A stretch of 40,668 nt of DNA from Alphaproteobacteria bacterium (GTDB taxonomy: Bacteria; Pseudomonadota; Alphaproteobacteria; Puniceispirillales; UBA1172). The notes below the pieces were generated by a model. The model saw nothing but the letters and a program-made list of their open reading frames with translations, ran no database searches and was not told the origin of the DNA. Positions 5,537-28,772 of the stretch are shown here, piece after piece. Location of the stretch: assembly GCA_021296375.1 (NCBI GenBank), contig JAGWAQ010000001.1, forward strand, positions 1 through 40,668, written 5' to 3'. Within the stretch, counting starts at the first letter, position 1; each line of letters starts with the position of its first letter. Made by a program: the position numbers and the translations under genes.

Positions 5537-5538
5537 GG

Positions 5539-6588: not shown

Positions 6589-6604
6589 CAAACGATTCTC
6601 TTTA

Positions 6605-7428: not shown

Positions 7429-7490
7429 TGTTGAGCCTATGTTTTTTTAAGTAACGCATAGTTTCATTAATTATACTTTTAGTGGTGTTG

Positions 7491-7537: not shown

Positions 7538-7547
7538 ATTATCCATC

Positions 7548-9197: not shown

Positions 9198-10162
9198 GCG
9201 GCAAGATAGAACAGATTGCCATCACCTCGATCGAGATCGGCACGCGGATCCGCGGGCTTGGCCGCCATCAGGTCGAGGTGCTGAAGGAAACGATTGCGCG
9301 GCAAGGGATATTGCAACCGGTGACGATCCGCCGTCAACGTGGAGGCAATCGGCCGTTCCGGCTGATTTCCGGCTGGCACCGCATCGCCGCGGCGGAAGCG
9401 CTGGGGCATCAGGAGGTGCCGGCGGTGGTGGCGGATGTTACGGCGGCGCAAGCAGGGCTGATGGAGGTTGACGAGAATCTCGGCCAGGGGCAGATGTTTC
9501 CGATTGACAAGGCGGCGCTGGTTGCGGCAAGGTTGAGCCACTGGCAGGCGATCCATCCTGCCCGTCGAGGCGGAGATCGCAAATCTGCCGAGGCAAGAAA
9601 ATCAAAAGTGCCATCATGGCACTTTGATATTCCTGAACAAAATCAAGGATTTACCTCTGATAAAAAAATCAGGGCGGCGGCGGAGCAGGTTGCCGCTGAT
9701 TTCGGCGAAGCGACGGCGGCGGCCGTAGGCCTATCCCGCCGTCATGTTTATCGACTACTCGCGATTCACCGGCGGCTTCGCCCAAATATTCACGAGCTGA
9801 TCTACTCCACCCCCCCCAAAATCTACACCTCCATTAACCAGCTGTATCGGTTGAGCAAGGAAACCCCTGATATTCAGGCGCTGGTGCTGGCGGCGTGCCG
9901 CGACAAACAGCTGACGACGGTGTCGGCGGGGGTGCGGGTGGCCATGGGCAGGGCGGTGCCGAGGCCCGACCCAATGATGCGGTTTGAGACCTTATGGGCG
10001 TCGATGACGCGCAAGCAACGCGCCAAGGTGCTGGCGCGGCTGAAGCCGGAGTTTCTGGAATGGGAGAAAAACCCCAATAAGGCGGGGCTTGAAGTGGTGG
10101 TGGATAATGACGCGCCGCTTGAGGATGACACGCCGCGTGATGATGACGGGGTGCAAGGATGA
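9194..10162 (+). CDS. ParB/Spo0J-like nuclease-fold DNA-binding protein (322 aa)
   Basis: ITSIEIGTRIRGLGRHQVEVLKETIARQGILQPVTIRR...FRLISGWHRIAAAEALGHQEVPAVVAD; central HTH-like region. Confidence 0.8.
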   Translation: MSGKIEQIAITSIEIGTRIRGLGRHQVEVLKETIARQGILQPVTIRRQRGGNRPFRLISGWHRIAAAEALGHQEVPAVVADVTAAQAGLMEVDENLGQGQMFPIDKAALVAARLSHWQAIHPARRGGDRKSAEARKSKVPSWHFDIPEQNQGFTSDKKIRAAAEQVAADFGEATAAAVGLSRRHVYRLLAIHRRLRPNIHELIYSTPPKIYTSINQLYRLSKETPDIQALVLAACRDKQLTTVSAGVRVAMGRAVPRPDPMMRFETLWASMTRKQRAKVLARLKPEFLEWEKNPNKAGLEVVVDNDAPLEDDTPRDDDGVQG

Positions 10163-12000
10163 GCTGGATGAGCCTGAGCGAGATGCTGGCGCAACGCTGG
10201 CGCGGCTGGCCCCGCACCAGGGCGGGGGTCCGCGGCCGGTGCAAAACGCTCGGCTGGCCATCCCGCCAGCGCGGCAATAAAACGGAATTTAAATGCGATT
10301 TAACGTTGGTGCAAAAGCCGGTTAAGTCGTCATCAATGACCGCATCATCAATGGCCGCGCCGCTGGACCCGGCGGAACTGTGGCGGGGCTGGGAAGCGCG
10401 GGGTGAGCGTGACCGTGCGGTGAGCATGACGCGGGCTGACCTGCTTGACCTGCTGGATGAAATGCAGGCGCAGGGCGCGCCGCGAATGGCGGCACTGGAG
10501 GCGGTGGCGGCGCGCGGCGGTGTCAGCACGGCGAGTTTGCGCCGCTGGCGGAATCTGGTGGCCACCGTCCCGCGGGATTTATGGCCAGCGGTGCTGTTGC
10601 CTTGTCGCCGCGGGGGCCGCCCGCCGGAGATCACGACAGATCCTGCCGCCGTCGCCTTCATCAAATCTGATTATTTGCGGGCCTCGCAACCGAGCTGGTC
10701 GAGCTGCTATCAGCGGCTGATGCAGGTGGCGGAAACCCGCGGCTGGATCGTTGGCTTGCCGCGCACCCTGAAGCGGCAGGTGCTGGACAGCTTGCCGCAT
10801 GAGGTGGTGGTGGCGGCGCGCAAGGGCGAGGCTGAGCTGAAAACCATGTTTCCGCCGCAACGCCGCAAGCGCGCGCATCTCGGGGCCATGGGGGCCGTCA
10901 ACCTTGACGGCCATCTATGGGACGTGATGGTCGAGTGGGAGGACGGCACACGAAGCCGCCCGATGATGACCGCCGCCCAGGATGTCGGTTCCGGCAAGAT
11001 GCTGGCCTGGCGGCTGGCGCCGCAGGAAGACGCCTTGACGGTGCGCTTGATGCTGGCGGATATGTTCAAAAACCACGGGTTGCCGGAGAAAATTTACATG
11101 GATAACGGGCGGGCTTTTGCCGCCAAATCCATCAGCGGCGGGTCGGTCAATCGATTCCGCTTCAAATTCAAGCCCGAAGACCCCGTGGGAATCCTCAAGC
11201 TGCTGAATATCGAGGCGCATTTCACCAAGCCGTATTCCGGCCAGTCGAAGCCGATCGAGCGGGCGTTCCGGGATCTGGCGGATCATGTCGCCAAACACCC
11301 TGCCGCTGAAGGTGCTTATCTGGGCAACACCCCCGCCAATCGCCCCGACAAGGCGGGGCGTGCGGTGCCAATCGCGGAGTTCCGCAAGCTGGTCGATCAG
11401 GGCATGACCCTGCATAACGCCCGGCCGGGGCGGCAAACGGAAGCCTGCCGCGGGGTGCTGAGTTTCGATGACGCGTTTGCGGAGCTGGCGCGAGACATGC
11501 CGGTGCGGCGGGCGACGGCGGCGCAGTTGCGGCTGGCCTTGCTGGCGAGCCAGCCGGTGCGCGCCTCCCGCCAATCGGGGCTGATCGAGCTGATGGGCAA
11601 CCGGTATTGGTCGGGCTGGATGAATCAGGTGGCGGGGCAAAAAGTCGTGGTGCGGTTTGACCCTGAAGACCTCAAGCAGAATATCTATCTCTACAATCTT
11701 GAAGGCAAGTTCCTCGGCACGGCGGAGCTGTTCGCCGACGCCGGATTTGATGACATGGCGGCGGCAAAAGCCCATGAGAAAAAGCGGCGTCAGAAAACAA
11801 AATTGACGAGAGAGTTGCTGGATCTCGAACGGCGATTGTCCCCGCGCGAGGTGGCGGCGGCGATTCCTGATGTGGAATTGCCGAAGCCGGACAGCTGGCC
11901 GGTAGTCCGCATGACGCCATTGAATTTGCCGGAAGATGATGACGGCGACATCTCCGCCCGCGATCTGGCGGCGGGACTTGAAAAAATGGGAGGTCAGTAA
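10159..12000 (+). CDS. Mu A-like DDE transposase (613 aa)
   Basis: HTH N-terminus; GAVNLDGHLWDVMVEWEDGTRSRPMMTAAQDVGSGKML..IYMDNGRAF.. DDE core; followed by an ATPase gene as in Mu A-B. Confidence 0.9.
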   Translation: MSWMSLSEMLAQRWRGWPRTRAGVRGRCKTLGWPSRQRGNKTEFKCDLTLVQKPVKSSSMTASSMAAPLDPAELWRGWEARGERDRAVSMTRADLLDLLDEMQAQGAPRMAALEAVAARGGVSTASLRRWRNLVATVPRDLWPAVLLPCRRGGRPPEITTDPAAVAFIKSDYLRASQPSWSSCYQRLMQVAETRGWIVGLPRTLKRQVLDSLPHEVVVAARKGEAELKTMFPPQRRKRAHLGAMGAVNLDGHLWDVMVEWEDGTRSRPMMTAAQDVGSGKMLAWRLAPQEDALTVRLMLADMFKNHGLPEKIYMDNGRAFAAKSISGGSVNRFRFKFKPEDPVGILKLLNIEAHFTKPYSGQSKPIERAFRDLADHVAKHPAAEGAYLGNTPANRPDKAGRAVPIAEFRKLVDQGMTLHNARPGRQTEACRGVLSFDDAFAELARDMPVRRATAAQLRLALLASQPVRASRQSGLIELMGNRYWSGWMNQVAGQKVVVRFDPEDLKQNIYLYNLEGKFLGTAELFADAGFDDMAAAKAHEKKRRQKTKLTRELLDLERRLSPREVAAAIPDVELPKPDSWPVVRMTPLNLPEDDDGDISARDLAAGLEKMGGQ

Positions 12001-12978
12001 ATGACACAAAGTGCAGAAAAAAGTGCAGAACAGACAATCATCACCCGCAATGACGCGATCATCGATGCCGTCAAAAAGCAGATGGCGGCGGAGAAAACCT
12101 CGCAAGCGGATCTGGCGCGGGTGCTGGGGGTGTCCACCACCCTGATCAATCAGGTGCTGAAGGGAATTTACAAGGGCGACCTTGGCTCGATCCTGCTCAA
12201 GCTTGAGCAATGGAGCGCCGATCGCCGTGACGCGGCAGAGGCGCGGGCGCAGGCGGTGACGGCGCCGGATTTTATGGAAACGCCGACGGCGGTGGAGTTC
12301 ATGACGGCCCTGTCCGTCAGCCAGCAGCTGAAGAAATACATAATCATCACCGGCGCGCCGGGGGTGGGGAAGACCATGGCGGCGCGGGAATATTTCCGGC
12401 GCCACAGTGCCGTCACCATGGTGACGCTGTCGCCGGTGGTGAGCCGCCCGCTGAGCCTGCTCCAGCATCTTTCTGACGAGCTGAACATTTCAACCAGGGT
12501 GCAATCGCGGATGACCCGCAACCTGATCGACTATTGGAACGCTCGCCCCGGCGGCATGCTGATTGTTGATGAGGCGCAGCACCTCAGCACTCAGGCGCTG
12601 GATGAGCTGCGCTCGATCCATGATCAAAGCGCCGTCGGGATTGCCCTGCTGGGCAACGAGAATCTGATCGAGCGCCTAACTGGTGACAACACGGCGGTTG
12701 AATTTGGCCAGCTGCGGTCACGCTTCAGCATCCGCGTGCGGCGCCGCACGCCAATGCCGCAGGACATTGAGATGATGCTCAATGCCTGGGCGATCAGCTC
12801 AAAAGAAATGCGGGTGTTCCTCGTCAAGGTGGCCAGCAAGCTCGGGCATCTGCGAACCCTCAATAACGTGCTGGAAATGGCGGTCGCCCTTGCCCAAGGC
12901 AAGCAGGCGGCGCTTGAGCTGAAGCATCTGAAACAGGCCTATGTTTATCAATCGGGCCATCAACTCGAAGGAGCATAA
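12001..12978 (+). CDS. Mu B-like AAA ATPase with N-terminal HTH (325 aa)
   Basis: Walker A TGAPGVGKT, Walker B MLIVDEAQHL; N-terminal ADLARVLGVSTTLINQVLKG HTH. Confidence 0.9.
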   Translation: MTQSAEKSAEQTIITRNDAIIDAVKKQMAAEKTSQADLARVLGVSTTLINQVLKGIYKGDLGSILLKLEQWSADRRDAAEARAQAVTAPDFMETPTAVEFMTALSVSQQLKKYIIITGAPGVGKTMAAREYFRRHSAVTMVTLSPVVSRPLSLLQHLSDELNISTRVQSRMTRNLIDYWNARPGGMLIVDEAQHLSTQALDELRSIHDQSAVGIALLGNENLIERLTGDNTAVEFGQLRSRFSIRVRRRTPMPQDIEMMLNAWAISSKEMRVFLVKVASKLGHLRTLNNVLEMAVALAQGKQAALELKHLKQAYVYQSGHQLEGA

Positions 12979-12979
12979 G

Positions 12980-13684
12980 ATGACCAATCCTGAAATGAAT
13001 TCTATCGGCAATAATGAAGAGGTGTATGTCAAAAACGCCAAGGGTCACCTTGTGCCGGAGACGTCGGTCAAGCCCGCCGACCGGCTGATTGACCAGGCGG
13101 TCAAGACGATCTTTGATCAGTATGCGATTCCCCTCAATGCGGAAATCGCGCGGTTCCGCGGCCATTGCATTGATGACATTGCGACATTGCAGAACCTTCT
13201 GCGTGAGGATTACGGAATCAAAAAAGGCGGGGTCAAGGGCAATGTGACGCTGATGAGTTACGACGGTTGCCGCAAGATCGAGCTGCAGCAGGCGCAACAC
13301 ATGACCTTCGACACCCGCATTCAGATCGCCAAGGAGCTGATCGACGAGTGCCTGACGGAATGGGCTGATGCCGGCACCCATGTCAACATCAAGACGATCA
13401 TCATGGACGCGTTTGAAGTCAATCAGCAGGGCAAGATGAGCCGCGAAAAGCTGCTCGGCCTGCGCCGCCACAATTTCGACCACCCCAAGTGGCAGACGGC
13501 GATGACGGCGATTGCCGACAGCATCACTTTCACGGGCAAGAAAGCCTATGTGCGGTTCTACCACCGCCCCGATTGCCATGCCCCCTGGGAAGCCCTGACG
13601 ATTGATATTGCCAGCGCGGCGGATGTCACCAGCCCCGACGAGGTTGATGATGCAGATGAGGATGAGGTTGCTGATGACCGCTGA
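12980..13684 (+). CDS. DUF3164-family phage protein
   Basis: Conserved early protein of Mu-like phages downstream of A/B; ..KGHLVPE..VKPADRLIDQAVKTIFDQ.. Confidence 0.75.
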   Translation: MTNPEMNSIGNNEEVYVKNAKGHLVPETSVKPADRLIDQAVKTIFDQYAIPLNAEIARFRGHCIDDIATLQNLLREDYGIKKGGVKGNVTLMSYDGCRKIELQQAQHMTFDTRIQIAKELIDECLTEWADAGTHVNIKTIIMDAFEVNQQGKMSREKLLGLRRHNFDHPKWQTAMTAIADSITFTGKKAYVRFYHRPDCHAPWEALTIDIASAADVTSPDEVDDADEDEVADDR

Positions 13685-14453
13685 GATCGCCCCCATTCAC
13701 ACCCCGCAGAAAAGCTGGCTCAAAAAAAAGCTCATGCTGATGGGCAGGGTTCATCAGGCCGCCAAGACCTTCGGCCTGGATGACGACACCCGGCGGGATC
13801 TGATGGCGCGGGTGACGGGGGAGAGGTCCACCAAAAACATGAACCCGGGTCAGCTGGCGGCGGTGCTCGATGAGATCAACCGCATTTACCAGCCGGATCA
13901 TCCCGGGGTGCACTCGCGCTTTCCTGAAGAGAAAAAAGCGCGGGCCTTGTGGCATTCCGCCTATTACCTCGGCCTGATCGAGGATGACGGGATGCGGGCG
14001 TTCAACCGTTTTGTCACGCGCCAGACCGGGTGTCGCGACCGGCGGATGGTGCGCGGCGACTGGGACAAGGTGATCGAGGCGCTGAAGGTGATGCTGGAGC
14101 GTGACGGCGGCGTCAATTGGGCGCGGCACAAACTTGATATTGAGCCGGGCAACAAGAAGCGTTGCCCGCGGGCGGCGGTCATCCTCGCCCAATGGCGGGA
14201 GCTGGCGGAATACGCCATGGTGCCGCGCGGCAATGCCGCCATCCTTATGGCGTTCATCCAGAAAAAATACCAGCTGGCCAAGCCGCTTTCGCCTGATCAA
14301 CTGCCGGCGGAGCTGCAGGACACCATCATCCGCTATTTTGGCAAAATTCTGCGTGAGTGCCAGCGCGGCCCCGATCCAGCTGGCGGCCCCGATCCGGCTG
14401 GCGGGGGCGGCCATGACGGCGGGGGCAATGACGGAGGCGGCAATGCAGCCTGA
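13674..14453 (+). CDS. Mu gp16-like (DUF1018) protein with Gly/Asp-rich tail
   Basis: ..VHQAAKTFGLDDDTRRDLMARVTGERSTKNMNPGQLAAVLDEI... Confidence 0.75.
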   Translation: MTAEIAPIHTPQKSWLKKKLMLMGRVHQAAKTFGLDDDTRRDLMARVTGERSTKNMNPGQLAAVLDEINRIYQPDHPGVHSRFPEEKKARALWHSAYYLGLIEDDGMRAFNRFVTRQTGCRDRRMVRGDWDKVIEALKVMLERDGGVNWARHKLDIEPGNKKRCPRAAVILAQWRELAEYAMVPRGNAAILMAFIQKKYQLAKPLSPDQLPAELQDTIIRYFGKILRECQRGPDPAGGPDPAGGGGHDGGGNDGGGNAA

Positions 14454-14874
14454 CATAGCCCCTGTTTCCGCCCCTGTTTCAGGCAGATATATCCGCCCTC
14501 ATCTGCCGCATCCGCTCGGTATCATCGCGCAACACACCTCATTTGAAACGGCGCTGCGGGTGGCGGAAGTGCTGGGCGGCCGCCGGGTGCGCATCCCCGA
14601 CAATCACCACAAGCTGACCCTGACGACAGAAGGGGTGGTGCTGGCGCGGCTTGTTGGCGCGGCGGCGGCGGCGATTTGTGATGATGTTCATGCCAGCGCG
14701 AACCGATCCCGCGGGCTGGGCTGCACCTGGGAGATCCCCCACGCGCCGGAAGCCTGGGCCATCGCCCTGATCGAAGACGGGGTATCGATCCCTGAAGTCG
14801 CGCACCGACTGAAGAAATCGCAACGGGCGGTGCGGGATTACATCAATCGTCACCGAAAGGAGGGCGCGTCATGA
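14443..14874 (+). CDS. Mor/C-family-like transcription activator candidate (143 aa)
   Basis: FETALRVAEVLGGRRVRIP resembles the Mor dimerisation segment; C-terminal HTH WAIALIEDGVSIPEVAHRLKKSQRAVRDYINRHRK; position after gp16 matches Mu mor. Confidence 0.7.
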   Translation: MQPDIAPVSAPVSGRYIRPHLPHPLGIIAQHTSFETALRVAEVLGGRRVRIPDNHHKLTLTTEGVVLARLVGAAAAAICDDVHASANRSRGLGCTWEIPHAPEAWAIALIEDGVSIPEVAHRLKKSQRAVRDYINRHRKEGAS

Positions 14875-15842
14875 CCGTCACCCAAACACTCTACCATTAC
14901 CATGATTTTTCAACCGGCGATAAGGTCGCCATCAAGATTTCTATTGAGACCGCCACCGCGTGTGGGTTGACGGTGCCGGAAATATGTAGCCTGCCGCTAT
15001 TGATCAAGGGCGCGAGCAAGGAGCAGATTCATAAATACAATGGCTATAAATCCCGCAGCAGCACTTGGCGGCTCATCAAATCTGTTTACGAAAAACTGGG
15101 GGCTGAAAAACCTTCTGAAATTCCGCTGGCGGCGCTGGCCCGGGGGATTTATATCGTTGAGTTTATCCGTGCAGATGCCCCTGCGGGATCGAGGTTGGGC
15201 AGTCCAGATGCCCCTGAATTCGAGGCGGCCCCTCAATCCGAGGCGGCCAGCGCAGATGCCAGCCCGGCCCCTGAATCCGAGGCGGCGGCGGACATCACGC
15301 CGAACAAGAAAGCCTATAAGATTGACCTGCAGATGGTGACGGAGATCAAGGCGATTTGGGATCACTGCTCCAACCTCAGCATTGCCTCCGCGCTCATCGC
15401 CCCGCGCTATTTTCTGACTGGCAATATTCCGCGGCAGGTGATGAATTGCCGCGGCGAGAAGGGCTGGTTTCCGCAAGAAAAATGGATGGAGCTGATCAAG
15501 ATCAGCCGCACCTATCGCCGCCATCGCGAGCCGCCGCCGCCATTGACGGAAGATGAGCTGTCGGTATTGATTGATACCGCCTGCAGAAAAGCGATGGCCG
15601 ACAACCGCCGCAAGCAGACAGAGCTGGCGGAAGGACGCGCCGCCGCTCAATCCGCAGCTCAATCCAGAACCACCGCAAATCTGGACGCCGCGGGAGAGGT
15701 ACGGGAGCGGATAGAGCGTGAGGGGTTTGGCCAGGAAGCCCCGCCGGCGGCTGATGATCTGGGGCGGTGGCGCGGCCGTGCCACCACGCTGCCCACCGGC
15801 AGCACGGCGATCGGCGATATGTACGCCGGAACCGCGGAATAG
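14871..15842 (+). CDS. Hypothetical protein with Ala/Pro/Glu-rich repetitive linker (323 aa)
   Basis: Linker DAPAGSRLGSPDAPEFEAAPQSEAASADASPAPESEAA between two ordered-looking segments. Confidence 0.65.
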   Translation: MTVTQTLYHYHDFSTGDKVAIKISIETATACGLTVPEICSLPLLIKGASKEQIHKYNGYKSRSSTWRLIKSVYEKLGAEKPSEIPLAALARGIYIVEFIRADAPAGSRLGSPDAPEFEAAPQSEAASADASPAPESEAAADITPNKKAYKIDLQMVTEIKAIWDHCSNLSIASALIAPRYFLTGNIPRQVMNCRGEKGWFPQEKWMELIKISRTYRRHREPPPPLTEDELSVLIDTACRKAMADNRRKQTELAEGRAAAQSAAQSRTTANLDAAGEVRERIEREGFGQEAPPAADDLGRWRGRATTLPTGSTAIGDMYAGTAE

Positions 15843-15852
15843 GGGCGGTGTG

Positions 15853-16251
15853 ATGGGGGGGTACGGCCATGTTAAAGACCGGGTTGAGGTGCTGGAAACA
15901 AAGCTCGAGGTGCTGTCGGCGCAAGTCGAGGCGCTGAAGAACCAGCTGCGTTCGCCCGCCCCACCAAAAATGATGGTCAATGAGCTGGTGGCCGCCGCCG
16001 CCAGGGCGACGGGGTTTTCCCCCCGTGAGCTGAGCTCACCCCTGCGGGTCCGGAAACTGATGCTGGCGCGGATCGCGGCATGCCTGGCGGCGCGGCGCCA
16101 CCACTGGACCGTCAGCCAGATCGGCATGGCGTTTAATCGGGACCACACCAGCATCCAGTATTACATCAACCACAAAATGACGAAGGACCCCCATGTCATC
16201 AACACGTCACGGCGGATCGAAGCCGAATTGATCAAGAAGGAGATTTATTGA
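15853..16251 (+). CDS. DnaA domain IV-like DNA-binding protein with N-terminal coiled coil (132 aa)
   Basis: VNELVAAAARATGFSPRELSSPLRVRKLMLARIAACLAARRHHWTVSQIGMAFNRDHTSIQYYINHKM; RDHTSI matches the DnaA C-terminal signature. Confidence 0.75.
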   Translation: MGGYGHVKDRVEVLETKLEVLSAQVEALKNQLRSPAPPKMMVNELVAAAARATGFSPRELSSPLRVRKLMLARIAACLAARRHHWTVSQIGMAFNRDHTSIQYYINHKMTKDPHVINTSRRIEAELIKKEIY

Positions 16252-16460
16252 TGGCACGCACCACCACCCGCGCCTTATCACCGGCGCAAAAGATGCTGGC
16301 CAGCGCCGCTTTGGTCGGCGGGTTCTTGCAGGAAATGGGGGCGGCCGCACCCACGGCCCTGCTTCCACGGCCACGTCACGGCGGCAAAAGCCGCCACTGG
16401 CAACGCAACCCCGGCCATCAGGCGTGGAAGCGCAACCGCCGCTCGGGAAGGAGGGCGTGA
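16251..16460 (+). CDS. Small basic hypothetical protein
   Basis: Coupled ORF between the DnaA-like and DUF1643 genes. Confidence 0.4.
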   Translation: MARTTTRALSPAQKMLASAALVGGFLQEMGAAAPTALLPRPRHGGKSRHWQRNPGHQAWKRNRRSGRRA

Positions 16461-17005
16461 TGAAACGCTCAGCCACATTCAGCGATTGCGGAAAATATCG
16501 TTATCGCCTTGACCGCGACTGGAGCGATATGTTGACGGATAATCCCCGTCGCGCCTTGTGGATCATGCTGAACCCCAGCACCGCCGACGCCAGCGAGGAT
16601 GACCCTACCATTCGGAGGATTATCAATTTCAGCAAGCGCGAGGGCTGTTCTGCCTTGACGGTGCTGAACCTGTCGCCACGTATTGCAACAGACCCTGCTG
16701 AACTGGCGGGGCTGACCGACGACGAATTGATGGGAGATGCGGATCAATATTATTCTAAAATGGATGATGTGTTTGACCCTGAACTTTCACCCCTGATCAT
16801 CTGTGCCTGGGGCGCAACTGCTTACAACAAAAAAACGTTAAAACCATGGGCGAATAAAGGATACGGTATTCTCTTTTCTCATCTTTCACGCAAGGCCAGC
16901 CAAAAATTACTCTGTCTTGGCCATACTAAAGACGGCGCGCCGCGACATCCGCTTTATGTCGATGCGGAGCAGCCACTTCTTGAACTTGCAAGGAGGACAT
17001 CATGA
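16460..17005 (+). CDS. DUF1643-family protein (181 aa)
   Basis: CGKYRYRLDRDW...ALWIMLNPSTADASEDDPTIRRIINFSKREGC..; ATG overlaps upstream TGA. Confidence 0.8.
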   Translation: MKRSATFSDCGKYRYRLDRDWSDMLTDNPRRALWIMLNPSTADASEDDPTIRRIINFSKREGCSALTVLNLSPRIATDPAELAGLTDDELMGDADQYYSKMDDVFDPELSPLIICAWGATAYNKKTLKPWANKGYGILFSHLSRKASQKLLCLGHTKDGAPRHPLYVDAEQPLLELARRTS

Positions 17006-17136
17006 ATAAGCCGGTTTCCGTTGCTGATCGGCCCGACGCGCACCGCCCGGGCAAGAAACGGCGCAAATGGTCCGCCAAGCGGCGGGCAAAAGCCATGGCC
17101 GCCCGCGCCCGCCACAACCTGAAAGGAGCACGGTGA
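17002..17136 (+). CDS. Very basic 44-aa microprotein
   Basis: MNKPVSVADRPDAHRPGKKRRKWSAKRRAKAMAARARHNLKGAR*; RBS AGGAGG upstream; coupled to both neighbours. Confidence 0.5.
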   Translation: MNKPVSVADRPDAHRPGKKRRKWSAKRRAKAMAARARHNLKGAR

Positions 17137-17204
17137 TGCCCGAAGCTATTATGGTTCTTGTTTTTCTTCTTGGATTGATTGTCTTCATCATAAATTCCAG
17201 CTAG
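17136..17204 (+). CDS. 22-aa single-TM micropeptide
   Basis: MPEAIMVLVFLLGLIVFIINSS*; preceded by AAAGGAG and TGATG coupling. Confidence 0.4.
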   Translation: MPEAIMVLVFLLGLIVFIINSS

Positions 17205-17226
17205 ACATGATTAAGGCATCCAAGAA

Positions 17227-17577
17227 ATGACCACCCCAACGAAAGCCTGGCGAATCTGCTCGCGGCGCGGCGGGCGCGAATTATGTGTCTATATGCCCGC
17301 CGCCACCGCTGATGAGGCCAAGTTCAGCATCATGGGCATTGGAGATTCCAGGCGTCTTGCGAATTGGCTGTGGCAAGATGTCAATGACATCGCTGATATG
17401 GTGGCGGCGCGCTGCCCTGATCTTGACGGCCAGCTGACCGACGCGCCTTACATGAATTTGAAAACCGCCATCCGCGAGGGGCTGGTGTTGCGGCGGCTGG
17501 GGCGGGAGTATATCGGCTTCTGCTCGAGGGCGGCGGCGCGGCGGTTTACTGATCGCCGGAAATCGCGGCGAGCTTAG
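17227..17577 (+). CDS. Hypothetical protein (116 aa)
   Basis: Intact ORF in the operon. Confidence 0.55.
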   Translation: MTTPTKAWRICSRRGGRELCVYMPAATADEAKFSIMGIGDSRRLANWLWQDVNDIADMVAARCPDLDGQLTDAPYMNLKTAIREGLVLRRLGREYIGFCSRAAARRFTDRRKSRRA

Positions 17578-17591
17578 TAAAGGATAAAAAA

Positions 17592-17912
17592 ATGCGATAC
17601 TTTACAGCACATAACCTGAAATGGGTTGTAGGCTTGGATGATTGGTCACATCTAAGCGATATTGACGGCATTTTTGAGGAGGTGATCGATCGCACGGCCG
17701 CTCTCAACCCTGACGTCGCCCACAACCTGCACCAAAAACTGCGGGCCAATGGCGATGATCTGTATGAGTTTTTGTATACTGCTTCGAAAGATAACGCCCT
17801 GCGCGCCATCCTTGATGAAATCGAATCTGCGGCATGGAATATTGAAGAACAACGCTGGGCGAACCTTGAAGGTCACGGCGGCACTTGCTCGCTCAGAGCT
17901 GCTGGCAACTAG
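17592..17912 (+). CDS. Hypothetical protein (106 aa)
   Basis: Intact ORF with an upstream purine-rich stretch. Confidence 0.5.
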   Translation: MRYFTAHNLKWVVGLDDWSHLSDIDGIFEEVIDRTAALNPDVAHNLHQKLRANGDDLYEFLYTASKDNALRAILDEIESAAWNIEEQRWANLEGHGGTCSLRAAGN

Positions 17913-17939
17913 AGCGGCGGCGGCGCGATTCAGGCATCG

Positions 17940-18014
17940 AAAAAAAAGTGAAAAAAAGTGAAAAAAAATGACGTTTTGTTGTTGACGACAAGGTCAATTG
18001 ACCCTATATTATAG
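17940..18014 (+). promoter_or_regulatory. Strong sigma70-type promoter with phased A-tracts and operator palindrome
   Basis: A-tracts at 17940-47, 17951-57, 17961-68; TTGACG (17982-87)-17 nt-TATATT (18005-10); GGTCAATTGACC palindrome at 17992-18003 in the spacer. Confidence 0.8.
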
Positions 18015-18072
18015 TCATAGCCCAGAAAAAAGGGCACCAACCCCAAAGCCTACGGGCAACAGGAGCAAGACC

Positions 18073-18567
18073 ATGAAAACCATCATTCAAAACGCCGCTT
18101 TCCGCGCTGAAGAAAATGGCTTAAAGCCAGCTACCATCAAGCAAATCAACTACATTGCTTTTCTGGCGGACACCCGCGCTGATGCCATCAGCATCACCGG
18201 CGAACTCACCAACTCCACTTACATGCTGACGAGCCGCAAGGCTTCGGACATCATCGGCGATCTGCTCGATCTGCCCGAAAAAACCCTTGCTCAGGCGCAG
18301 GCCGATGAGCAAGCCAAAGCCGAAGCGCTGGCGATTACCGCCGCGCGCGGTGCCGCCAAAGCCGCCGCCAAAACTGAAATCCGCAATGCGGGCTTCAAAA
18401 AAGGCGATCGCGTCGAAATCCGCGACGGCGTAAAGCCAGATAGCGGTGAAGCAAATTGGGTCGAAGGCACTGTCGTCAAGGGTGGCGGCAAGCCAAAAGT
18501 TCGGATTGACGGCTATAATTCAGCTCATACAATCCGCAATATCGACGACATCCGCCACATCGGTTAA
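18073..18567 (+). CDS. Hypothetical cassette protein with C-terminal KOW/SH3-like segment (164 aa)
   Basis: MKTIIQNAAFRAEENG...FKKGDRVEIRDG..EGTVVKGGGKPKVRI; leader GGAGCAAGACC. Confidence 0.7.
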   Translation: MKTIIQNAAFRAEENGLKPATIKQINYIAFLADTRADAISITGELTNSTYMLTSRKASDIIGDLLDLPEKTLAQAQADEQAKAEALAITAARGAAKAAAKTEIRNAGFKKGDRVEIRDGVKPDSGEANWVEGTVVKGGGKPKVRIDGYNSAHTIRNIDDIRHIG

Positions 18568-18576
18568 TCCCTGCCT

Positions 18577-18606
18577 CACTCCACCGGCTCTCAAGCTGGT
18601 GGGGTG
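18577..18606 (+). other. 12-bp stem-loop (CACTCCACCGGC-TCTCAA-GCTGGTGGGGTG) after the first cassette gene
   Basis: Complementary arms including two G-T pairs, 6-nt loop, no T tract. Confidence 0.55.
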
Positions 18607-18621
18607 TAGCGGCGGTTACGT

Positions 18622-18675
18622 CAGGGTGGCGACCCTCGCCAGGGTGGCGACCCTCGCCAGGGTGGCGACCCTCGC
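18622..18675 (+). repeat. Three perfect 18-bp tandem repeats CAGGGTGGCGACCCTCGC, each with hairpin AGGGT-GGCG-ACCCT
   Basis: Direct reading: units 18622-18639, 18640-18657, 18658-18675. Confidence 0.9.
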
Positions 18676-18733
18676 CGACGGGCAATCCTGCCCTACAACC
18701 CAAGGCCCGCAGAGCGGGCAGAAGGAGAAGACC

Positions 18734-19318
18734 ATGAAGACCATTACATTTGAACTCACTAATGCTCAACTGCATCTGATGGCGGATCAATATTCCACGC
18801 ATTCCAAAAGCCGGATGTTGCAGGATATTCTGGCGGCGATGTCACCGGAAGCGGAGCAATACGCGCTTTTGGATGTGGATGAACACATGCCTCAAAAAAT
18901 CGTGACGGAATGCCACGCCGGTTATCAGCTCGTGGCTCATGACCTGCGTGAGGTCAGCGGTGAAATTTTCGACAAATACTGTCAGGATTATCCCGAAGAC
19001 CAGAGCGTCCATCGCTCTCATGAAGCCCGCAAATGGCGGGCGTCGTGGAAGCGCGCCGAGGTGCTGCTGGATCGTGCTGAACACGAGCTGAAGAAAACCG
19101 GCGCGGTCAGCATCGAAACCCTCGATGTTCTCGGCAAGGCCGCCGGGCTGGTCAAGAGCTTTGCTGTCCAGGATGGCGGATTCGCCAATGGCTGCCGGAC
19201 AAAAGCCGGGCCAATCTGGAAGCGCTATGAAAACCTGCGGCTGACCCACCCCGGCTATTCCACCGAGCCGGGGCGACATGGCTTTAACCGCATCGTCAAA
19301 ATCAAGACAGCGTCTTGA
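18734..19318 (+). CDS. Hypothetical cassette protein (194 aa)
   Basis: MKTITFELTNAQLHLMADQYSTHSKSRMLQ...; leader GGAGAAGACCATGAAGACCAT matches that of 18073. Confidence 0.7.
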   Translation: MKTITFELTNAQLHLMADQYSTHSKSRMLQDILAAMSPEAEQYALLDVDEHMPQKIVTECHAGYQLVAHDLREVSGEIFDKYCQDYPEDQSVHRSHEARKWRASWKRAEVLLDRAEHELKKTGAVSIETLDVLGKAAGLVKSFAVQDGGFANGCRTKAGPIWKRYENLRLTHPGYSTEPGRHGFNRIVKIKTAS

Positions 19319-19327
19319 CACTTTCGC

Positions 19328-19372
19328 ATCCTCACCGGCACCAAAACAGTGCCGGTGAGGATCGGTTTTTTT
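19328..19372 (+). terminator. Strong intrinsic terminator
   Basis: 14-bp perfect stem ATCCTCACCGGCAC/GTGCCGGTGAGGAT, 7-nt loop, CGG then TTTTTTT. Confidence 0.9.
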
Positions 19373-19384
19373 GATGGAGAACAA

Positions 19385-19729
19385 ATGATGACCAATTCCA
19401 ATTCAAAAATTCATGGGAATACTGGCAAACGTCATACTGCCGAAGCTCGCCGCAAAATAAGTGATTTTCAAAAAAGTAGAAAGCGCGAGCCTTTTTCTGT
19501 CGAAACCCGCCGCAGGATGAGTAAGGCTGCAAAAAACAAGCCCCAATCTCCTAAACATACTAGAAATATGGCGATTGGCGTTTCTTTTGCCGCCGCCTGG
19601 AAAAAGGCGGAGCATCTTGATGAGATTGAACACCTGATGTCGCTGGGTGTTGAAAATACGATTGCCAAATGGGATGTCACTCCTGACGAAATTTTGGCTC
19701 TCATTGCCAAAAAGAAAGCGAAATCATGA
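19385..19729 (+). CDS. NUMOD3-like DNA-binding-motif protein without an evident nuclease domain (114 aa)
   Basis: GNTGKRHTAEARRKISDFQKSRKREPFSVETRRRMSKAAKNK: two NUMOD3-like repeats. Confidence 0.6.
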   Translation: MMTNSNSKIHGNTGKRHTAEARRKISDFQKSRKREPFSVETRRRMSKAAKNKPQSPKHTRNMAIGVSFAAAWKKAEHLDEIEHLMSLGVENTIAKWDVTPDEILALIAKKKAKS

Positions 19730-20004
19730 AACTCACCCCTGAATTGCTCAAGCGATTTCGTTTGTATTCACCCCCCGCCCGTTTAAGCACTGCCGCCATG
19801 GCGGCGCTGGTGGGATTGAAATTCGGCCGCAACTGGGGCTATTTTGAATCGCCCGAAAGCGCGGCGACCCATCGCCGCCTGAACCCCTGCATGCGGCGCG
19901 CCGTCATCCTCATCTGGTGGTACGTCAAAACAACCGGCGCCCTGCCGGATTTCGACAAGCTCGAAGATGAAATGGTCAATGAGCTCGATCAACCCCCGAA
20001 ATAA
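19726..20004 (+). CDS. Hypothetical protein (92 aa)
   Basis: ATGA overlap with the upstream gene. Confidence 0.55.
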   Translation: MKLTPELLKRFRLYSPPARLSTAAMAALVGLKFGRNWGYFESPESAATHRRLNPCMRRAVILIWWYVKTTGALPDFDKLEDEMVNELDQPPK

Positions 20005-20084
20005 ACATCCCCGTCACGCCGCCACCAGCCGCCGCTGGGGGGCTGGCGGCACCCATCCCGCCAGATTTGATCTTGAGGGCAAAA

Positions 20085-20109
20085 TTAAACGCGTTTAAAC
20101 GGGGTTTAA
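20085..20109. repeat. Palindrome TTAAACGCGTTTAA followed by another GTTTAA
   Basis: Perfect 14-bp palindrome at 20085-20098; GTTTAA again at 20104. Confidence 0.6.
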
Positions 20110-20163
20110 GCGGGGTCTGTGCCTGAAGCTGCCCTGCCCCTGCAGCTCTCACCCGCTTCCATT

Positions 20164-20207
20164 TGGCGAAATCGCCACGCCACCCGCCCGCCGCCATGGG
20201 CTATGAT
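20164..20207 (+). promoter_or_regulatory. Late-type operator-promoter element, copy 2 (-10-like TATGAT at 20202-20207)
   Basis: TGGCGAAATCGCCACGCCACC at 20164; same spacing as copies 1 and 3. Confidence 0.8.
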
Positions 20208-20237
20208 GTCTTTGTTTGCATCAACCCGGAGGCGCAA

Positions 20238-20807
20238 GTGGACTGGACAAAAATCAAATCAGCAGTGGCGGCGGTGGCCCCGACATTGGGGGGGTTGATC
20301 ATCCCCGGGCCTGTCGGCGTTGGCGCCGGTGCCTTGATCGCCAATGCGCTCGGCACCCCCGATGACCCTGAAGAGGTCATCAACACCATCATGAGAAATC
20401 CCGCCGCCGCCACTGAAAAATTGCGGGGGCTGCAGATTCAGAAATCGGCAGAAATTTCCGCGCTTCAAATCGCCGCCGAGCGCGACATGGCGCTGGCCAT
20501 CAACCAGACCATGCGCGCCGAAGTCACCAGCGCCCATCCCTACGCCCGCAACTGGCGGCCCACCATCGGCTACATCGTGGCGTACATGCTCGCCAGCCTG
20601 TGGACAGGGCTGATCTATATCCTGTTCTTCAAACCGACGGAGGATTTTGTCGCGGCCGCCGCCGCCGCCGCCGAGCTCAACACCATCTTCGTGGCCGCGC
20701 TGGCGGTGCTTGGCATTAATATTGCCAACCGGTCCGGCGACAAGCGCGCCGCCATGGGCGCCCCGACGGCGATCGAGAGCCTGAAAAAACTGGTGCGGGA
20801 GAATTAG
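20238..20807 (+). CDS. 3-TM holin (GTA-type holin family-like); likely GTG start
   Basis: WTKIKSAVAAVAPTLGGLIIPGPVGVGAGALIA...; GGAGG 5 nt before GTG 20238; the longer ORF start (20163) runs through the promoter. Confidence 0.75.
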   Translation: MDWTKIKSAVAAVAPTLGGLIIPGPVGVGAGALIANALGTPDDPEEVINTIMRNPAAATEKLRGLQIQKSAEISALQIAAERDMALAINQTMRAEVTSAHPYARNWRPTIGYIVAYMLASLWTGLIYILFFKPTEDFVAAAAAAAELNTIFVAALAVLGINIANRSGDKRAAMGAPTAIESLKKLVREN

Positions 20808-20810
20808 ACC

Positions 20811-21107
20811 ATGACGGATTTGCTGCCCTGGCTGCAATGGTTGACGCCCCCAACCCTCGCCCTTGCTGTGTGGGCGATATGGGGGCGGGTGGAATTGCAG
20901 AAACAGATCGCCCTGCTCAAAGTCAAGGTCGATCACCTTGAACAAACCGCGAAGGACAGCCCGTCGCACGCCGATATTGAAAAGCTGGTCGGCACGCTCA
21001 AGACATTGACCGCCACGCTGGAAGGCCTGGAAAAGCGGTTCGTTCAGCAGCAAAGCCAGTTGACGCGCATCGAAAGCTTTCTGATGAATAACAAGGACAT
21101 AAAATGA
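20811..21107 (+). CDS. DUF2730-like membrane/coiled-coil protein
   Basis: N-terminal TM plus coiled coil, in Mu-like gene order. Confidence 0.7.
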   Translation: MTDLLPWLQWLTPPTLALAVWAIWGRVELQKQIALLKVKVDHLEQTAKDSPSHADIEKLVGTLKTLTATLEGLEKRFVQQQSQLTRIESFLMNNKDIK

Positions 21108-21406
21108 CTACCTACAAAAAACATCTTGCGGAACACCGCCGGCTGTCGATTCTGCGGGCGGCGTTGATGAACAATTTCAAAATCAACGAGAGCATCACCC
21201 AGACCGTGCTGGCGGAGTTCGGGCTGGTGGCGCCGCGCGAGGAAATCAGGGCAGAGTTCACCTGGCTGGCGGAGGCCGGGCTGGGCAAGACAGAAGAGCT
21301 GAGCCCGACGTTGATGGTCTTCACCATCAATCAGCGCGGCAAGGAAACGGCGAAGGGAATCAAGCTGGTGGATGGTGTAGCTGAACCCGGCCCCGAGATG
21401 GCCTGA
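21104..21406 (+). CDS. wHTH-like phage protein (VpaChn25_0724-type)
   Basis: RRLSILRAALMNNFKINESITQTVLAEFGLVAPREEIRAEFTWLAEAGL... Confidence 0.65.
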   Translation: MTTYKKHLAEHRRLSILRAALMNNFKINESITQTVLAEFGLVAPREEIRAEFTWLAEAGLGKTEELSPTLMVFTINQRGKETAKGIKLVDGVAEPGPEMA

Positions 21407-21409
21407 GCA

Positions 21410-21964
21410 ATGGGAAAGCGCGGGCCAAAATCATCTCTCACCACCTTGCCTCATGACGTCAAGGCGCAGGTCGACCAGATGCTCAATAGCGGGGTGACGA
21501 TCCGCGAGCTGGTGAGTTATCTGCGTGAGGCCGGTGAGGAGCGCAGCCATGGCGCGGTCCAGCGGTTCACCGCCCAGGAACGCGCGATCAGGAAACGCCT
21601 GCACCAGAGCCGCGAGATGGCGGCGCGGGTGGTCAGTGAGCTGGGGTCAGCGGCGGCTCAGGGCAAGCAGGGCCGCCTGCTGGTGGAGCTGGTGCAAAAC
21701 CTGACCAATGAATACATGCGCAACATCTATGATGGCGCGGAAATGACGCCCGATGACATCCAGAAACTGGCGCGCGGCATCAAGGAGATGGCGATCGCGC
21801 TGCGCCATAGCCAGGACTTTGAGGATCGCGACGCGGTGATGGCAAAGGCGGCGGCGGCGGCGGCGTCAATCATCAAGGATCGCGCTGAAGGTGGCGGCGC
21901 TAATGCCATTGAGAATGGTGAGGATCTGCTTGCCGCGATCCGCAGCGCCATGGAGGACGGCTGA
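21410..21964 (+). CDS. DUF3486-family (Mu gp27-like) small terminase-position protein
   Basis: GKRGPKSSLTTLPHDVKAQVDQMLNSGVTIRELVSYLRE.. Confidence 0.8.
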   Translation: MGKRGPKSSLTTLPHDVKAQVDQMLNSGVTIRELVSYLREAGEERSHGAVQRFTAQERAIRKRLHQSREMAARVVSELGSAAAQGKQGRLLVELVQNLTNEYMRNIYDGAEMTPDDIQKLARGIKEMAIALRHSQDFEDRDAVMAKAAAAAASIIKDRAEGGGANAIENGEDLLAAIRSAMEDG

Positions 21965-23547
21965 TGGCCAAATCCCCAAAGCCCCGCAAATCTGACATTG
22001 TCAAATGGGCCTTGCTGCCCTACCAATCCGCATGGGTCAAAGACAAATCCCCCGTCAAGGTCTGTGAGAAAGGCCGCCGCATCGGCATCAGCTGGGCGGA
22101 AGCCTATGACGACACGCTCTACGCCCTGGAAGGCGGCGGCAATGTCTACTACCAGACTTTCGCCGTTGATGCCGCCCGCGGCTTCATCAATGATTGCGAG
22201 TACTGGCTCAACGCTTTGCGGAACCTCAGCCTCACGGCGGTGGAGGTTGACCCGATCGATTATCTTCATGAAAACACCACCGCCGAAGAACAATTGAGCA
22301 TCAAGGCCTTCCGGATTGACCTGCCGAACGGGCGGGAGATCGTCGCCCTGACATCAAGCCCCCGCCAGTTCCGCTCCAAGGGTCGCCCCGGCGACCGCGC
22401 CGTGCTGGATGAAGCGGCGTTTATGAATGACATTGACGAGTCCATCAAGGCGGTGCTTGCCTTCACGATTTGGGGTGGCGGGGTGCGCGTGATTTCAACC
22501 CATGATGGCATTGACAACCCCTTTAATATTTTGATCGATGACATCAAACAGGGGTTAAAAAAATACAGCCACCACCGCATCCCCTTCTCGCAAGCCGAGG
22601 ATGACGGGCTGGTGGAGCGCGTCTGCCATGTCATTGAAAGCCATAAAACTGAAGCCGACCGCCGCCCTGTCGATGCCGCCATGATCGCCGCCAAATCGGA
22701 AGAGATCAGGGATATTTATGCCGACAACGCGGATGAGGAGCTGGAGTGCATCCCCCGCTCGCGCCTCGGCGCCTATTACGACGCCGTGCTGGTGCGGGCG
22801 GCGCGTCATCCTGATGCCGGCAACCCCGGGCTGGCGGATCCCGATTCGCTGGCCTGGGTCGGCATTGACCTGGCACGCAAACAGCACCAATGGGTTGCCT
22901 CTATTATTCAGGATCGTCAGGGCAAGACACGGCTGGTCGAAGAGGTCATCCTGCCCGACGCGCATATTGACGCGCAGGATCAGGCGGTGAGCGGCATCTT
23001 CACGCGCTATAATGTCGCGCAGGTTTTTGCGGATGAGATTGGACTCGGTGAAGGTTATATCGAAAACTGGAAGCGGATGCGCCCCGGCCAGCGCGTTAAT
23101 GAAGGCCGCGGCAATCAATGGGTGTCGTCGATTAACGGGCTGAAGATCACCGGCGTGCGCGCCCAGGGCGACCGGCGGTTTGAAATGGCGGATCGCCTGA
23201 AAGCCTATCTTGAAGCGGGGACGCTGGAGATCCCTGATGATCGCGAGCTGTTCAATGAGTTCAGCCTGTTCCGCACTGTCAAGTCACCGGCGGGATCGGT
23301 CACCCTGCAGACGCTGGAAAATCGCGCCGGTCACGGCGACCGCGTCTGGGCCTTGATCTTCGCGCTGGCCGCCAAGGACGACGGGCTGGTGGAAGCGGTG
23401 ATGGCATCAGGGCGGCTTGATTACGACGAGCTGATGGACCATAACCCTGACGCGGCGCGGGCCTTGATGATGGAGGCCTATAACAAACGCCGGATGACCC
23501 CCCAATTGCCGTATCAAAAACGATCCCGCGGAGGCGCGACATGGTAG
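21964..23547 (+). CDS. Large terminase subunit (Mu gp28-like)
   Basis: VKVCEKGRRIGISWAEAYDDTLYAL..; SSPRQFRSKGRPGDRAVLDEAAF; nuclease-like WVGIDLARKQHQW. Confidence 0.9.
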   Translation: MAKSPKPRKSDIVKWALLPYQSAWVKDKSPVKVCEKGRRIGISWAEAYDDTLYALEGGGNVYYQTFAVDAARGFINDCEYWLNALRNLSLTAVEVDPIDYLHENTTAEEQLSIKAFRIDLPNGREIVALTSSPRQFRSKGRPGDRAVLDEAAFMNDIDESIKAVLAFTIWGGGVRVISTHDGIDNPFNILIDDIKQGLKKYSHHRIPFSQAEDDGLVERVCHVIESHKTEADRRPVDAAMIAAKSEEIRDIYADNADEELECIPRSRLGAYYDAVLVRAARHPDAGNPGLADPDSLAWVGIDLARKQHQWVASIIQDRQGKTRLVEEVILPDAHIDAQDQAVSGIFTRYNVAQVFADEIGLGEGYIENWKRMRPGQRVNEGRGNQWVSSINGLKITGVRAQGDRRFEMADRLKAYLEAGTLEIPDDRELFNEFSLFRTVKSPAGSVTLQTLENRAGHGDRVWALIFALAAKDDGLVEAVMASGRLDYDELMDHNPDAARALMMEAYNKRRMTPQLPYQKRSRGGATW

Positions 23548-26040: not shown

Positions 26041-26382
26041 ATGTCGATTCCAAAGGCACAGATTGAGAAAATCACGGCGCATCTGGCGGCGGAAGGCACC
26101 ACCGTCCAACATTCCACCCCGATTGAAAAGAAAGGGAAGCATGGCCGCAAAATCGCCAAGATGCAGACCACCGACGACATCATCACCCCTGATGATGTGC
26201 TGGCGGCGAACGGTCATCCTGATGGCGGCTGGACGCTGGTGACGGTTGACGGGCAGAAATTCCATGTTGCTGAAGGCGAGCTGGTCACTGCCGCGCCACC
26301 GCCACCACCACCACCACCGCCACCACCACCGCCTAAGGCACCCAAGGCACCCAAGGCACCCAAAACCGGGGGCAATAAGTAA
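26041..26382 (+). CDS. Hypothetical protein with polyproline (P13) and (KAP)3 tail (113 aa)
   Basis: ..TAAPPPPPPPPPPPPPKAPKAPKAPKTGGNK; RBS GAGGGG. Confidence 0.7.
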   Translation: MSIPKAQIEKITAHLAAEGTTVQHSTPIEKKGKHGRKIAKMQTTDDIITPDDVLAANGHPDGGWTLVTVDGQKFHVAEGELVTAAPPPPPPPPPPPPPKAPKAPKAPKTGGNK

Positions 26383-28772
26383 TGAAAACCCTGCTGGAAA
26401 TGCTGATGGAATATTCCGACGGCGCGATCATCGGCCGTGACGCGCTGGCGGAAGCCTGGACCAGTGGTGATCTTGACCAGCTGCGTGACGCCTTGCGTGA
26501 CGCCATCAAGACAACCGAAGGGATGGGTGACGACAGCTGGGTGAACATCGAAGCGATCTTCAGCGATACCGTCATCTTCATCGATGACCTTGATTACATC
26601 CAGTACGACTGGTCCCAGGGCGCGGATGGCGCGATTGTCCTCAGCAACAAGACCAAGGTCATGAAGACCTGGTCTGAAGTGGCGGAAGCCGCGGCGGTGG
26701 ACGCCGGGTTGATTTGCGAAGCGGCGGAAAAGGATGATGCCCTCCATGTCCGCGTCATCAAGGCCGGGGCGTCAGCGGCGTCAGGGGTCTATTACCCCGC
26801 CGAAGAATTGAGGCGGCTGGCGGAAGCCAATGCCGGCAACACCTGGCCTGTCTACGCCGGGTCTGATGAGGACCACCGCAAACGCCCCGGCACCGGCGCT
26901 GACGTGCGCCAGACCATCGGCTGGATCGAAGGCATCAGCTATATCGCCGAGGCCGCGAAAGGCGGGCCTGCCGTTTTCGGGGTCATGCGCTTGCTGGAAC
27001 CCGCCGAAGGGCTGGGCAAAAAGATCATGACCGCTGTGTCCAAAGGCATGCCCGGGCTGTTCGGGCTCAGCATCACCGGGGCGGCGGGGCAGTTCAAGCC
27101 GCGTCACGAGCCCGGCCGCAAGCTGGCCGAAGCCCATAATATAAACATCCAATCCGTTGACATCGTCGCGCGGCCCACCGCCGGCGGGGCTATCCTTAAC
27201 CTGGCGGAAGCCGCCATGCCCGAAGGAGGGGCAGACCCTATGACCAAAGAACAGATCATCGCCGCGCTGGTGGAGAAAGGTTACGCCAAGGCGGCGATCG
27301 CCCATCTTGGTGAAGATGCCCTCACCACCATGCTGACCAACACCCCTGCCGCGGATCCCGCACCGGACGCACCGGTCGCACCGGCTGCCGATCCCGCACC
27401 GGCTGCCGATCCCGCACCGGCCGCGCCGGCTGCTGACGCGGCGGCTATTGCCGAAGCGGCGAAAAAGCAGGTCGCCGAAGCCATGGCACTTGCGGGCGCG
27501 CAGATGGCGGCCAATGATCGCGTCCACCGGTCGGATATTCCCGCCGCCACACGGGACCGCCTGCTTGAGCGGGTGAGCGGCATGACGGATCCGGCGCAGC
27601 TGACGGAAGCGGCGGTCACCAGCCTGATCGAGGCGGAGCGGAGCTACCTGGCGGAGGCCGGCGGCACCGCAGGTGGCATCCCCGATTTTAAACTGCCGTC
27701 GGTCAAGGTAACGGATAACGCCAACATGCTGACGGAAGCGGCGGTGGCCATGCTCGACCCCGGCCACAAGGACCATGGCCTCGCCATGCGTGAGCTGGGG
27801 GGGCTGAAGGGGCTTTACCTGAAAACCACTGGTGACAGATTGCTGAGCGGGTTCAGCCGCAAGCATATTGTTGAAGCGGCGGTCAGCTCCTCGACCTTTG
27901 ATCAGATCCTCGGGGACAGCATCCACCGCGTCTTGATGATGCGCTATGATTTCATGATGCAGACGACGCGCTGGAACGAGCTGGTGAGCAGCACCCGCGC
28001 GATCATGGATTTCAAGGATCACCGATTCAGTAATGTCGGTGGATACGGCACGATTCCTGATGTCAATGAAGGCGCCAGCTATAACGACCTGACCCACCCC
28101 ACGGAGTGGGAAGCCAACTTTGCCGTAAGCAAGCGCGGCGGCGTCATCCCCGTCACCTTCGAGATGATCCGTAACGATGACATGGCCCTGCTTCAGCGGC
28201 TGATCGAAAAGGCGGCGGAAGCCTGTGTCTTCACCCTCAATGATTTTGTTTTTGGTTTGGTGACGCAATCGAGCGGCAACATCTATGATGGCGCGGTGCT
28301 GTATTCCGCCACCCGTGGCAACCTTGGCACCACGGCGTTTTCCAAAGCGGCCTTCCGCACGGCGGATATCGCCCTGCGCAAGCAGCAGGAGTTGAGCAGC
28401 ACACGTCCGCTCAACATGCCGACCAAGAAAATTATCTGTTCCATTGACCTGGAGCCGACCATTCTGGACGCGCAACAGCGCGGCACGGAAAACGACCCTG
28501 ACACCGACACGTCACGGATGCGGGCGGTCGATGTCGTTCCTTGGGAGGGCATGACCGATGAAAATGACTGGTACCAGCTGGCCGACCCCATGCGATGCCC
28601 CGGGATTGAGGTCGGTTTCCTTGATGGCAAGAAGGAGCCAGAGGTGATCAACCGTGACAATGTCATGGAAGGCCCGGCGTTCACCAATGACCAAATGGAG
28701 TTCAAGCTGCGTCATATTTATGGCGGCACCGTTTCCGACTGGCGGTCAATGCGGGCCAACAGACCAGCTTAA
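26382..28772 (+). CDS. Fused prohead protease - scaffold - major capsid protein (796 aa)
   Basis: N-terminal protease-like region (..YYPAEELRRLAEANAGNTWPVYAGSDEDHRKRP...GLFGLSITGAAG..), Ala/Pro/Asp-rich central linker, C-terminal Mu-T/HK97-like capsid region. Confidence 0.8.
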   Translation: MKTLLEMLMEYSDGAIIGRDALAEAWTSGDLDQLRDALRDAIKTTEGMGDDSWVNIEAIFSDTVIFIDDLDYIQYDWSQGADGAIVLSNKTKVMKTWSEVAEAAAVDAGLICEAAEKDDALHVRVIKAGASAASGVYYPAEELRRLAEANAGNTWPVYAGSDEDHRKRPGTGADVRQTIGWIEGISYIAEAAKGGPAVFGVMRLLEPAEGLGKKIMTAVSKGMPGLFGLSITGAAGQFKPRHEPGRKLAEAHNINIQSVDIVARPTAGGAILNLAEAAMPEGGADPMTKEQIIAALVEKGYAKAAIAHLGEDALTTMLTNTPAADPAPDAPVAPAADPAPAADPAPAAPAADAAAIAEAAKKQVAEAMALAGAQMAANDRVHRSDIPAATRDRLLERVSGMTDPAQLTEAAVTSLIEAERSYLAEAGGTAGGIPDFKLPSVKVTDNANMLTEAAVAMLDPGHKDHGLAMRELGGLKGLYLKTTGDRLLSGFSRKHIVEAAVSSSTFDQILGDSIHRVLMMRYDFMMQTTRWNELVSSTRAIMDFKDHRFSNVGGYGTIPDVNEGASYNDLTHPTEWEANFAVSKRGGVIPVTFEMIRNDDMALLQRLIEKAAEACVFTLNDFVFGLVTQSSGNIYDGAVLYSATRGNLGTTAFSKAAFRTADIALRKQQELSSTRPLNMPTKKIICSIDLEPTILDAQQRGTENDPDTDTSRMRAVDVVPWEGMTDENDWYQLADPMRCPGIEVGFLDGKKEPEVINRDNVMEGPAFTNDQMEFKLRHIYGGTVSDWRSMRANRPA
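27240..28772 (+). CDS. Putative nested in-frame product (scaffold-capsid, 510 aa) from an internal start
   Basis: AAGGAGGGG (27223-27231), 8 nt, ATG 27240, in frame with the 26382 ORF (858 nt); MTKEQIIAALVEKGY... Confidence 0.55.
   Translation: MTKEQIIAALVEKGYAKAAIAHLGEDALTTMLTNTPAADPAPDAPVAPAADPAPAADPAPAAPAADAAAIAEAAKKQVAEAMALAGAQMAANDRVHRSDIPAATRDRLLERVSGMTDPAQLTEAAVTSLIEAERSYLAEAGGTAGGIPDFKLPSVKVTDNANMLTEAAVAMLDPGHKDHGLAMRELGGLKGLYLKTTGDRLLSGFSRKHIVEAAVSSSTFDQILGDSIHRVLMMRYDFMMQTTRWNELVSSTRAIMDFKDHRFSNVGGYGTIPDVNEGASYNDLTHPTEWEANFAVSKRGGVIPVTFEMIRNDDMALLQRLIEKAAEACVFTLNDFVFGLVTQSSGNIYDGAVLYSATRGNLGTTAFSKAAFRTADIALRKQQELSSTRPLNMPTKKIICSIDLEPTILDAQQRGTENDPDTDTSRMRAVDVVPWEGMTDENDWYQLADPMRCPGIEVGFLDGKKEPEVINRDNVMEGPAFTNDQMEFKLRHIYGGTVSDWRSMRANRPA

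Follow-up and report, generated by a model that had tools for sequence, protein, structure and literature searches.

We identified a candidate cargo operon in the Mu-like temperate phage held by the window analysed here, a stretch of 40,668 nucleotides that makes up the entire contig C171 of a 2.0-Mb, 219-contig MAG. The operon carries two genes on the plus strand, gene A (18073–18567) and gene B (18734–19318), which encode orphan proteins of 164 and 194 aa, respectively. As judged from sequence features, A and B probably form an accessory operon with its own promoter. The fuller reading, in which the unit is a self-contained, possibly self-repressed, moron-like operon of the phage, stands in our view at about even chances.

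The Mu-like genes of the window encode a ParB-like protein, a MuA-type transposase, a MuB-type protein, DUF3164, GemA, a Mor-like activator, a GTA-type holin, TerS and TerL. The Mor-like gene (14443–14874) matched a PHROG late transcriptional activator (E 6e-8), and the gene in the ner position had a PHROG match of unknown function. Two HTH repressor-like genes were found on the minus strand. Judging by the closest phage relatives, the host is probably alphaproteobacterial. An inverted TCATGTAG...CTACATGA at 101–108 and 40585–40592 probably marks the phage ends. No 5-bp duplication was seen in the flanks of these candidate ends, so the two contig ends may derive from different insertion sites. 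The Mu-type protease/scaffold and the major capsid protein, each encoded by its own gene in the annotated relatives, seem to be fused in one 796-aa ORF (26382–28772).

Three A-tracts on the plus strand (17940–17968) lie 5' of the -35 element of the operon and resemble an UP element or bent DNA. They start at 17940 (A8), 17951 (A7) and 17961 (A8), with a spacing of 11 and 10 bp, and form a 3.1-copy 10-bp tandem repeat of AAAAAAAGTG. The sigma-70-type promoter TTGACG-17-TATATT (17982–18010, plus strand), with TTGACG at 17982–17987, a 17-bp spacer and TATATT at 18005–18010, agreed with the consensus at 10 of 12 positions. Both the phased tracts and the promoter had been named in a preliminary description of this DNA, and both were found. 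If these features were largely coincidental, A and B would depend on read-through transcripts of the early/accessory operon upstream, and the terminator behind B would be the sole real boundary. The genes from 7548 to 19318 all lie on the same strand, which is compatible with read-through, and promoter-like sites as a class occurred at chance level within 5500–22000 (9 versus 7.8 in shuffles). However, the phased A-tract triplet appeared in 0 of 300 first-order Markov simulations of the window, and it stands here together with one of the two best consensus matches within 5500–22000. The promoter is also correctly oriented, and the leader lies in an AT-rich intergenic stretch of 160 bp (46% GC). 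Read-through is therefore considered unlikely, and the operon has a predicted promoter of its own, as expected of a moron.

The perfect palindrome GGTCAATTGACC (17992–18003, plus strand) was confirmed within the promoter spacer, between -35 and -10, and is a candidate operator. TTGAC also occurs within the -35, which gives TTGAC-N6-GTCAA overlapping GTCAA-TTGAC. The 40.7 kb contain 25 perfect palindromes of at least 12 nt, GGTCAATTGACC among them, so by a post hoc estimate the chance of such a palindrome falling in a given 17-bp spacer is roughly 0.4%. The position of the palindrome within a strong promoter suggests a dimeric repressor, which when bound to GGTCAATTGACC would shut the promoter by blocking RNA polymerase. 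Matches to the candidate operator elsewhere in the window were at chance level only. The terms repressible and lysogen-expressed are used for the operon only in the sense that its sequence features suggest them.

An intrinsic terminator (19328–19372, plus strand) ends the unit. Its stem-loop (19328–19362) has 14 pairs and a 7-nt loop, is followed by CGG-T7 and gave a folding z-score of -4.85, which bears out the 14-bp-stem terminator described earlier. The operon would thus have its own 3' boundary, the second feature expected of a moron. A NUMOD3-motif protein is encoded at 19388–19729, directly 3' of the terminator, and no nuclease domain was found in it with Pfam.

The promoter might instead be a middle/lytic promoter of the phage, in which case A and B would be lytic accessory genes under the phage repressors or the Mor-like protein and not lysogen cargo. 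The location is consistent with this: the promoter follows shortly after the Mor-like gene and precedes the holin, in the same Mor-to-lysis interval as in relatives. However, activator-dependent Mu middle/late promoters have no near-consensus -35, whereas the -35 here is near-consensus, and the strong terminator would block the late genes. Moreover, no second copy of GGTCAATTGACC was found in the window, the c/ner control region included, and the holin is directly preceded by another palindrome that comes with repeats. We consider a middle/lytic promoter possible but rather unlikely. The palindrome before the holin, TTAAACGCGTTTAA (20085–20116), lies just 5' of the holin and late genes and is a candidate late-promoter control site. 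GCGTTTAA sites, found at 298–315 and 20085–20116, were above chance (5 versus 0.8).

The operon is located in a larger accessory block (14871–20004, plus strand), flanked by the Mor-like activator gene on one side and the holin/packaging genes on the other. The block comprises g14871, a DnaA-C-domain gene, DUF1643, g17227, g17592, A, B, the NUMOD3 gene and g19726. By tblastn, 27 window proteins were compared with ten comparator Mu-like (pro)phage loci, namely Sinorhizobium, Rhodovulum and Thiobacimonas phages, one IMG/VR contig and six class-level prophages. The backbone genes MuA, MuB, DUF3164, GemA, g21104 and TerL were recovered in the comparators, whereas A and B were found in 0 of 10. The DnaA-C, DUF1643, g17227, g17592, NUMOD3 and g19726 genes were likewise found in none of the ten. 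The interval from GemA to g21104 was 6.65 kb here and about 2.1–3.2 kb in the comparators where it was measurable or could be estimated. Since A and B were absent where the backbone was found, and since this interval is longer here, we conclude that A and B are accessory. They are not invariant core genes of all relatives, a possibility that the preliminary description had raised against its own reading. In the presence/absence comparison that it had proposed for exactly this block, A and B were missing from the ten comparators, but their direct neighbours are accessory genes as well, and a close relative of the phage did not turn up. The DnaA C-terminal DNA-binding domain (Pfam E 5e-9) belongs to a small gene at 15787–16251, which adjoins the DUF1643 gene.

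Both genes had been proposed at 18073 and 18734, and codon usage supported both as coding: A and B gave the best score among the six frames with the codon usage of the phage core. The GC content of the unit was 57.0%, compared with a phage average of 58.8%. GC3 differed only mildly, at 0.61–0.64 in A and B against 0.72–0.81 in core genes. The deviant base composition that is usual, though not obligatory, in morons was thus not found. The cassette is bounded by a promoter and a terminator as described, but it sits inside a longer accessory block. The term moron-like holds for its boundaries, its non-core genes and its orphan proteins, but not for its base composition, which is near the phage average. 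Overall, the label of a moron-like operon within a larger accessory block fits the predicted features of the A-B unit.

No significant homologue of A or B was found in Pfam, PHROGs, NCBIfam, PADLOC or PDB sequences. Relatives were also not found in phage and plasmid records, in IMG/VR (a search that covered close relatives only) or in about 480 same-class genomes, and nothing significant was found for B in GTDB contigs. The earlier statement that neither protein is of a recognised family therefore agrees with every library searched. Weak class-level matches were rejected as chance because of the ORFs in or opposite which they fall. Opposite the B match (G438), on the other strand, is a cold-shock-domain-type ORF, and the A matches (G164 and G215) are in ORFs whose translations read as uroporphyrinogen-synthase and pantothenate-synthetase types. 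For B, a match to DNA polymerase III psi (E 0.03) fell below the cut-off and was rejected. With no relatives detectable for either protein, the operon makes a good, if ordinary-looking, candidate for additional phage cargo.

Single-sequence structure models of A and B were weak (pLDDT 65 and 61). Protein A (pI 9.2) was predicted to have a helical N-terminus with an ATxKQ...LTxxxAS-type stretch, an Ala-rich helix and a basic, five-strand, SH3-like C-terminal barrel (pLDDT about 80). Foldseek matched the barrel to PWWP and other SH3-like domains (Tudor, KOW) with a probability of up to 1.0, over a span of only about 55 residues, and no structural match of A or B reached E 0.001. The modelled barrel suggests nucleic-acid or protein binding, without a specific function. 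Protein B was modelled with a strand at residues 4–7, helices at 10–19 and 25–36 and then further helices forming a bundle, with a pLDDT of about 50 for residues 1–50. This order fits strand-helix-helix at a confidence of about 50, without profile support, and the N-terminus of B resembles a ribbon-helix-helix domain as a lead only. CopG/Arc proteins are ribbon-helix-helix repressors, and B shares with them the predicted strand-helix-helix at residues 4–36 and an SKSxM stretch. In contrast to CopG/Arc, B had no profile match and is fused to a helical region of roughly 150 residues. No DNA-binding profile was found for B in Pfam, NCBIfam or PHROG; phrog_15564, of unknown function, alone covered its N-terminal region (E 0.0025, fragment query).

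The start regions of A and B are near-identical. The leader of gene A is GGAGCAAGACCATGAAAACCAT and that of gene B is GGAGAAGACCATGAAGACCAT, and the 17 nt common to both starts, AAGACCATGAA[A/G]ACCAT, match at 16 of 17 positions. The shared leader of the preliminary description thus stood, except that the B leader is one base shorter than was quoted. A reading of GAAGACCATGAA as a general host leader was not supported, with one exact copy in the MAG. The A-B intergenic region of 166 nt, which the preliminary description had passed over, folds far better than shuffles (z -4.74), and an Rfam search of the region gave no match. A 13-bp-stem hairpin without a U-run (18576–18609) directly follows the stop of A and may act as a 3'-end protector or attenuator. 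Three exact copies of the 18-bp CAGGGTGGCGACCCTCGC (18622–18676), able to form hairpins, and the GGCAATCCTGCC hairpin (18681–18692) upstream of B lie further along the same plus strand. Exact AGGGTGGCGACCCT was not found elsewhere in the MAG.

Two small genes with a palindrome in their promoter could also be a toxin-antitoxin-type addiction module autoregulated via that palindrome, and the possible ribbon-helix-helix domain of B recalls many antitoxins. However, neither A nor B matched a toxin or antitoxin family in Pfam, NCBIfam or PADLOC. A gap of 166 bp with strong hairpins separates the genes, which neither overlap nor abut, and both proteins are larger than those of typical toxin-antitoxin pairs. 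We regard an addiction module as very unlikely.

In the moron-like reading, transcription of the operon would not depend on the phage's early and late programmes and would probably take place in the lysogen too. The repressor acting on GGTCAATTGACC would most likely be B itself, via its ribbon-helix-helix-like N-terminus. B is the best internal candidate, and the phage repressors are the main alternative; autorepression by B is proposed tentatively. The hairpins after A would uncouple A from B and probably shift the ratio towards A, so that effector A would be in excess over regulator B. Of the two proteins, A would be the likely effector, with nucleic acid or a host nucleic-acid-binding machine as its target; an anti-defence or exclusion role of A is somewhat doubtful. 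Mu-like phages carry accessory genes, anti-CRISPRs included, at plastic sites (PMC4378225), so anti-defence is a fair guess and not a finding. If the operon works as proposed, it would add two new protein families to the phage cargo pool and provide a directly testable promoter-operator-repressor set.

The operon resembles the morons of lambdoid phages and the plastic-region genes of Pseudomonas Mu-like phages (PMC4378225) as a promoter/terminator-bounded extra among core genes, absent from relatives and of unknown function. It differs from these in having two genes and not one, in its phage-like composition, in its position inside a larger accessory block, and in belonging to a different phage with unrelated proteins. 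In Acr-Aca operons, an inverted repeat lies within the core promoter and an autorepressor gene downstream (PMC9410906). The A-B operon shares with acr-aca operons the strong core promoter with an inverted repeat, the small orphan first gene and a second gene that may be a regulator. In contrast, no HTH Aca-like protein was detected: A and B had no HTH match in Pfam, PHROG or NCBIfam, and no match to a known acr or aca was found. The A-B operon was therefore not filed as acr-aca despite the similar logic. It also differs from acr-aca operons in its strong intergenic hairpins and in the size of A and B, as most Acr proteins are smaller. The combined proposal of a new anti-defence or superinfection-exclusion operon, with a non-HTH autorepressor B (ribbon-helix-helix plus helical bundle) and an intergenic punctuation common with the C131 element, is quite unlikely as a whole.

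C131 is a small contig of the same MAG. The hairpins CACCGGC..GCTGGTGGGG and GGCAATCCYGCC of 18565–18733 recur there between genes (locus L002, at 600–720 and 1500–1560). GGCAATCCYGCC is enriched in the MAG, and the copies inspected, those on the minus strand in part, were mostly ordinary coding sequence. Among the copies inspected, the first hairpin and GGCAATCCYGCC occurred together in an intergenic context only on C131. Hairpins common to both contigs offer a way to look for more host cargo genes without protein homology. On C131 they adjoin an ankyrin-repeat-type gene and an orphan gene, and the N-terminus of the latter is weakly similar to g17592 (BLASTP E 5e-4 in a single comparison; score reached by 1 of 1000 shuffles). 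This hints at a cargo pool common to two mobile elements of the host.
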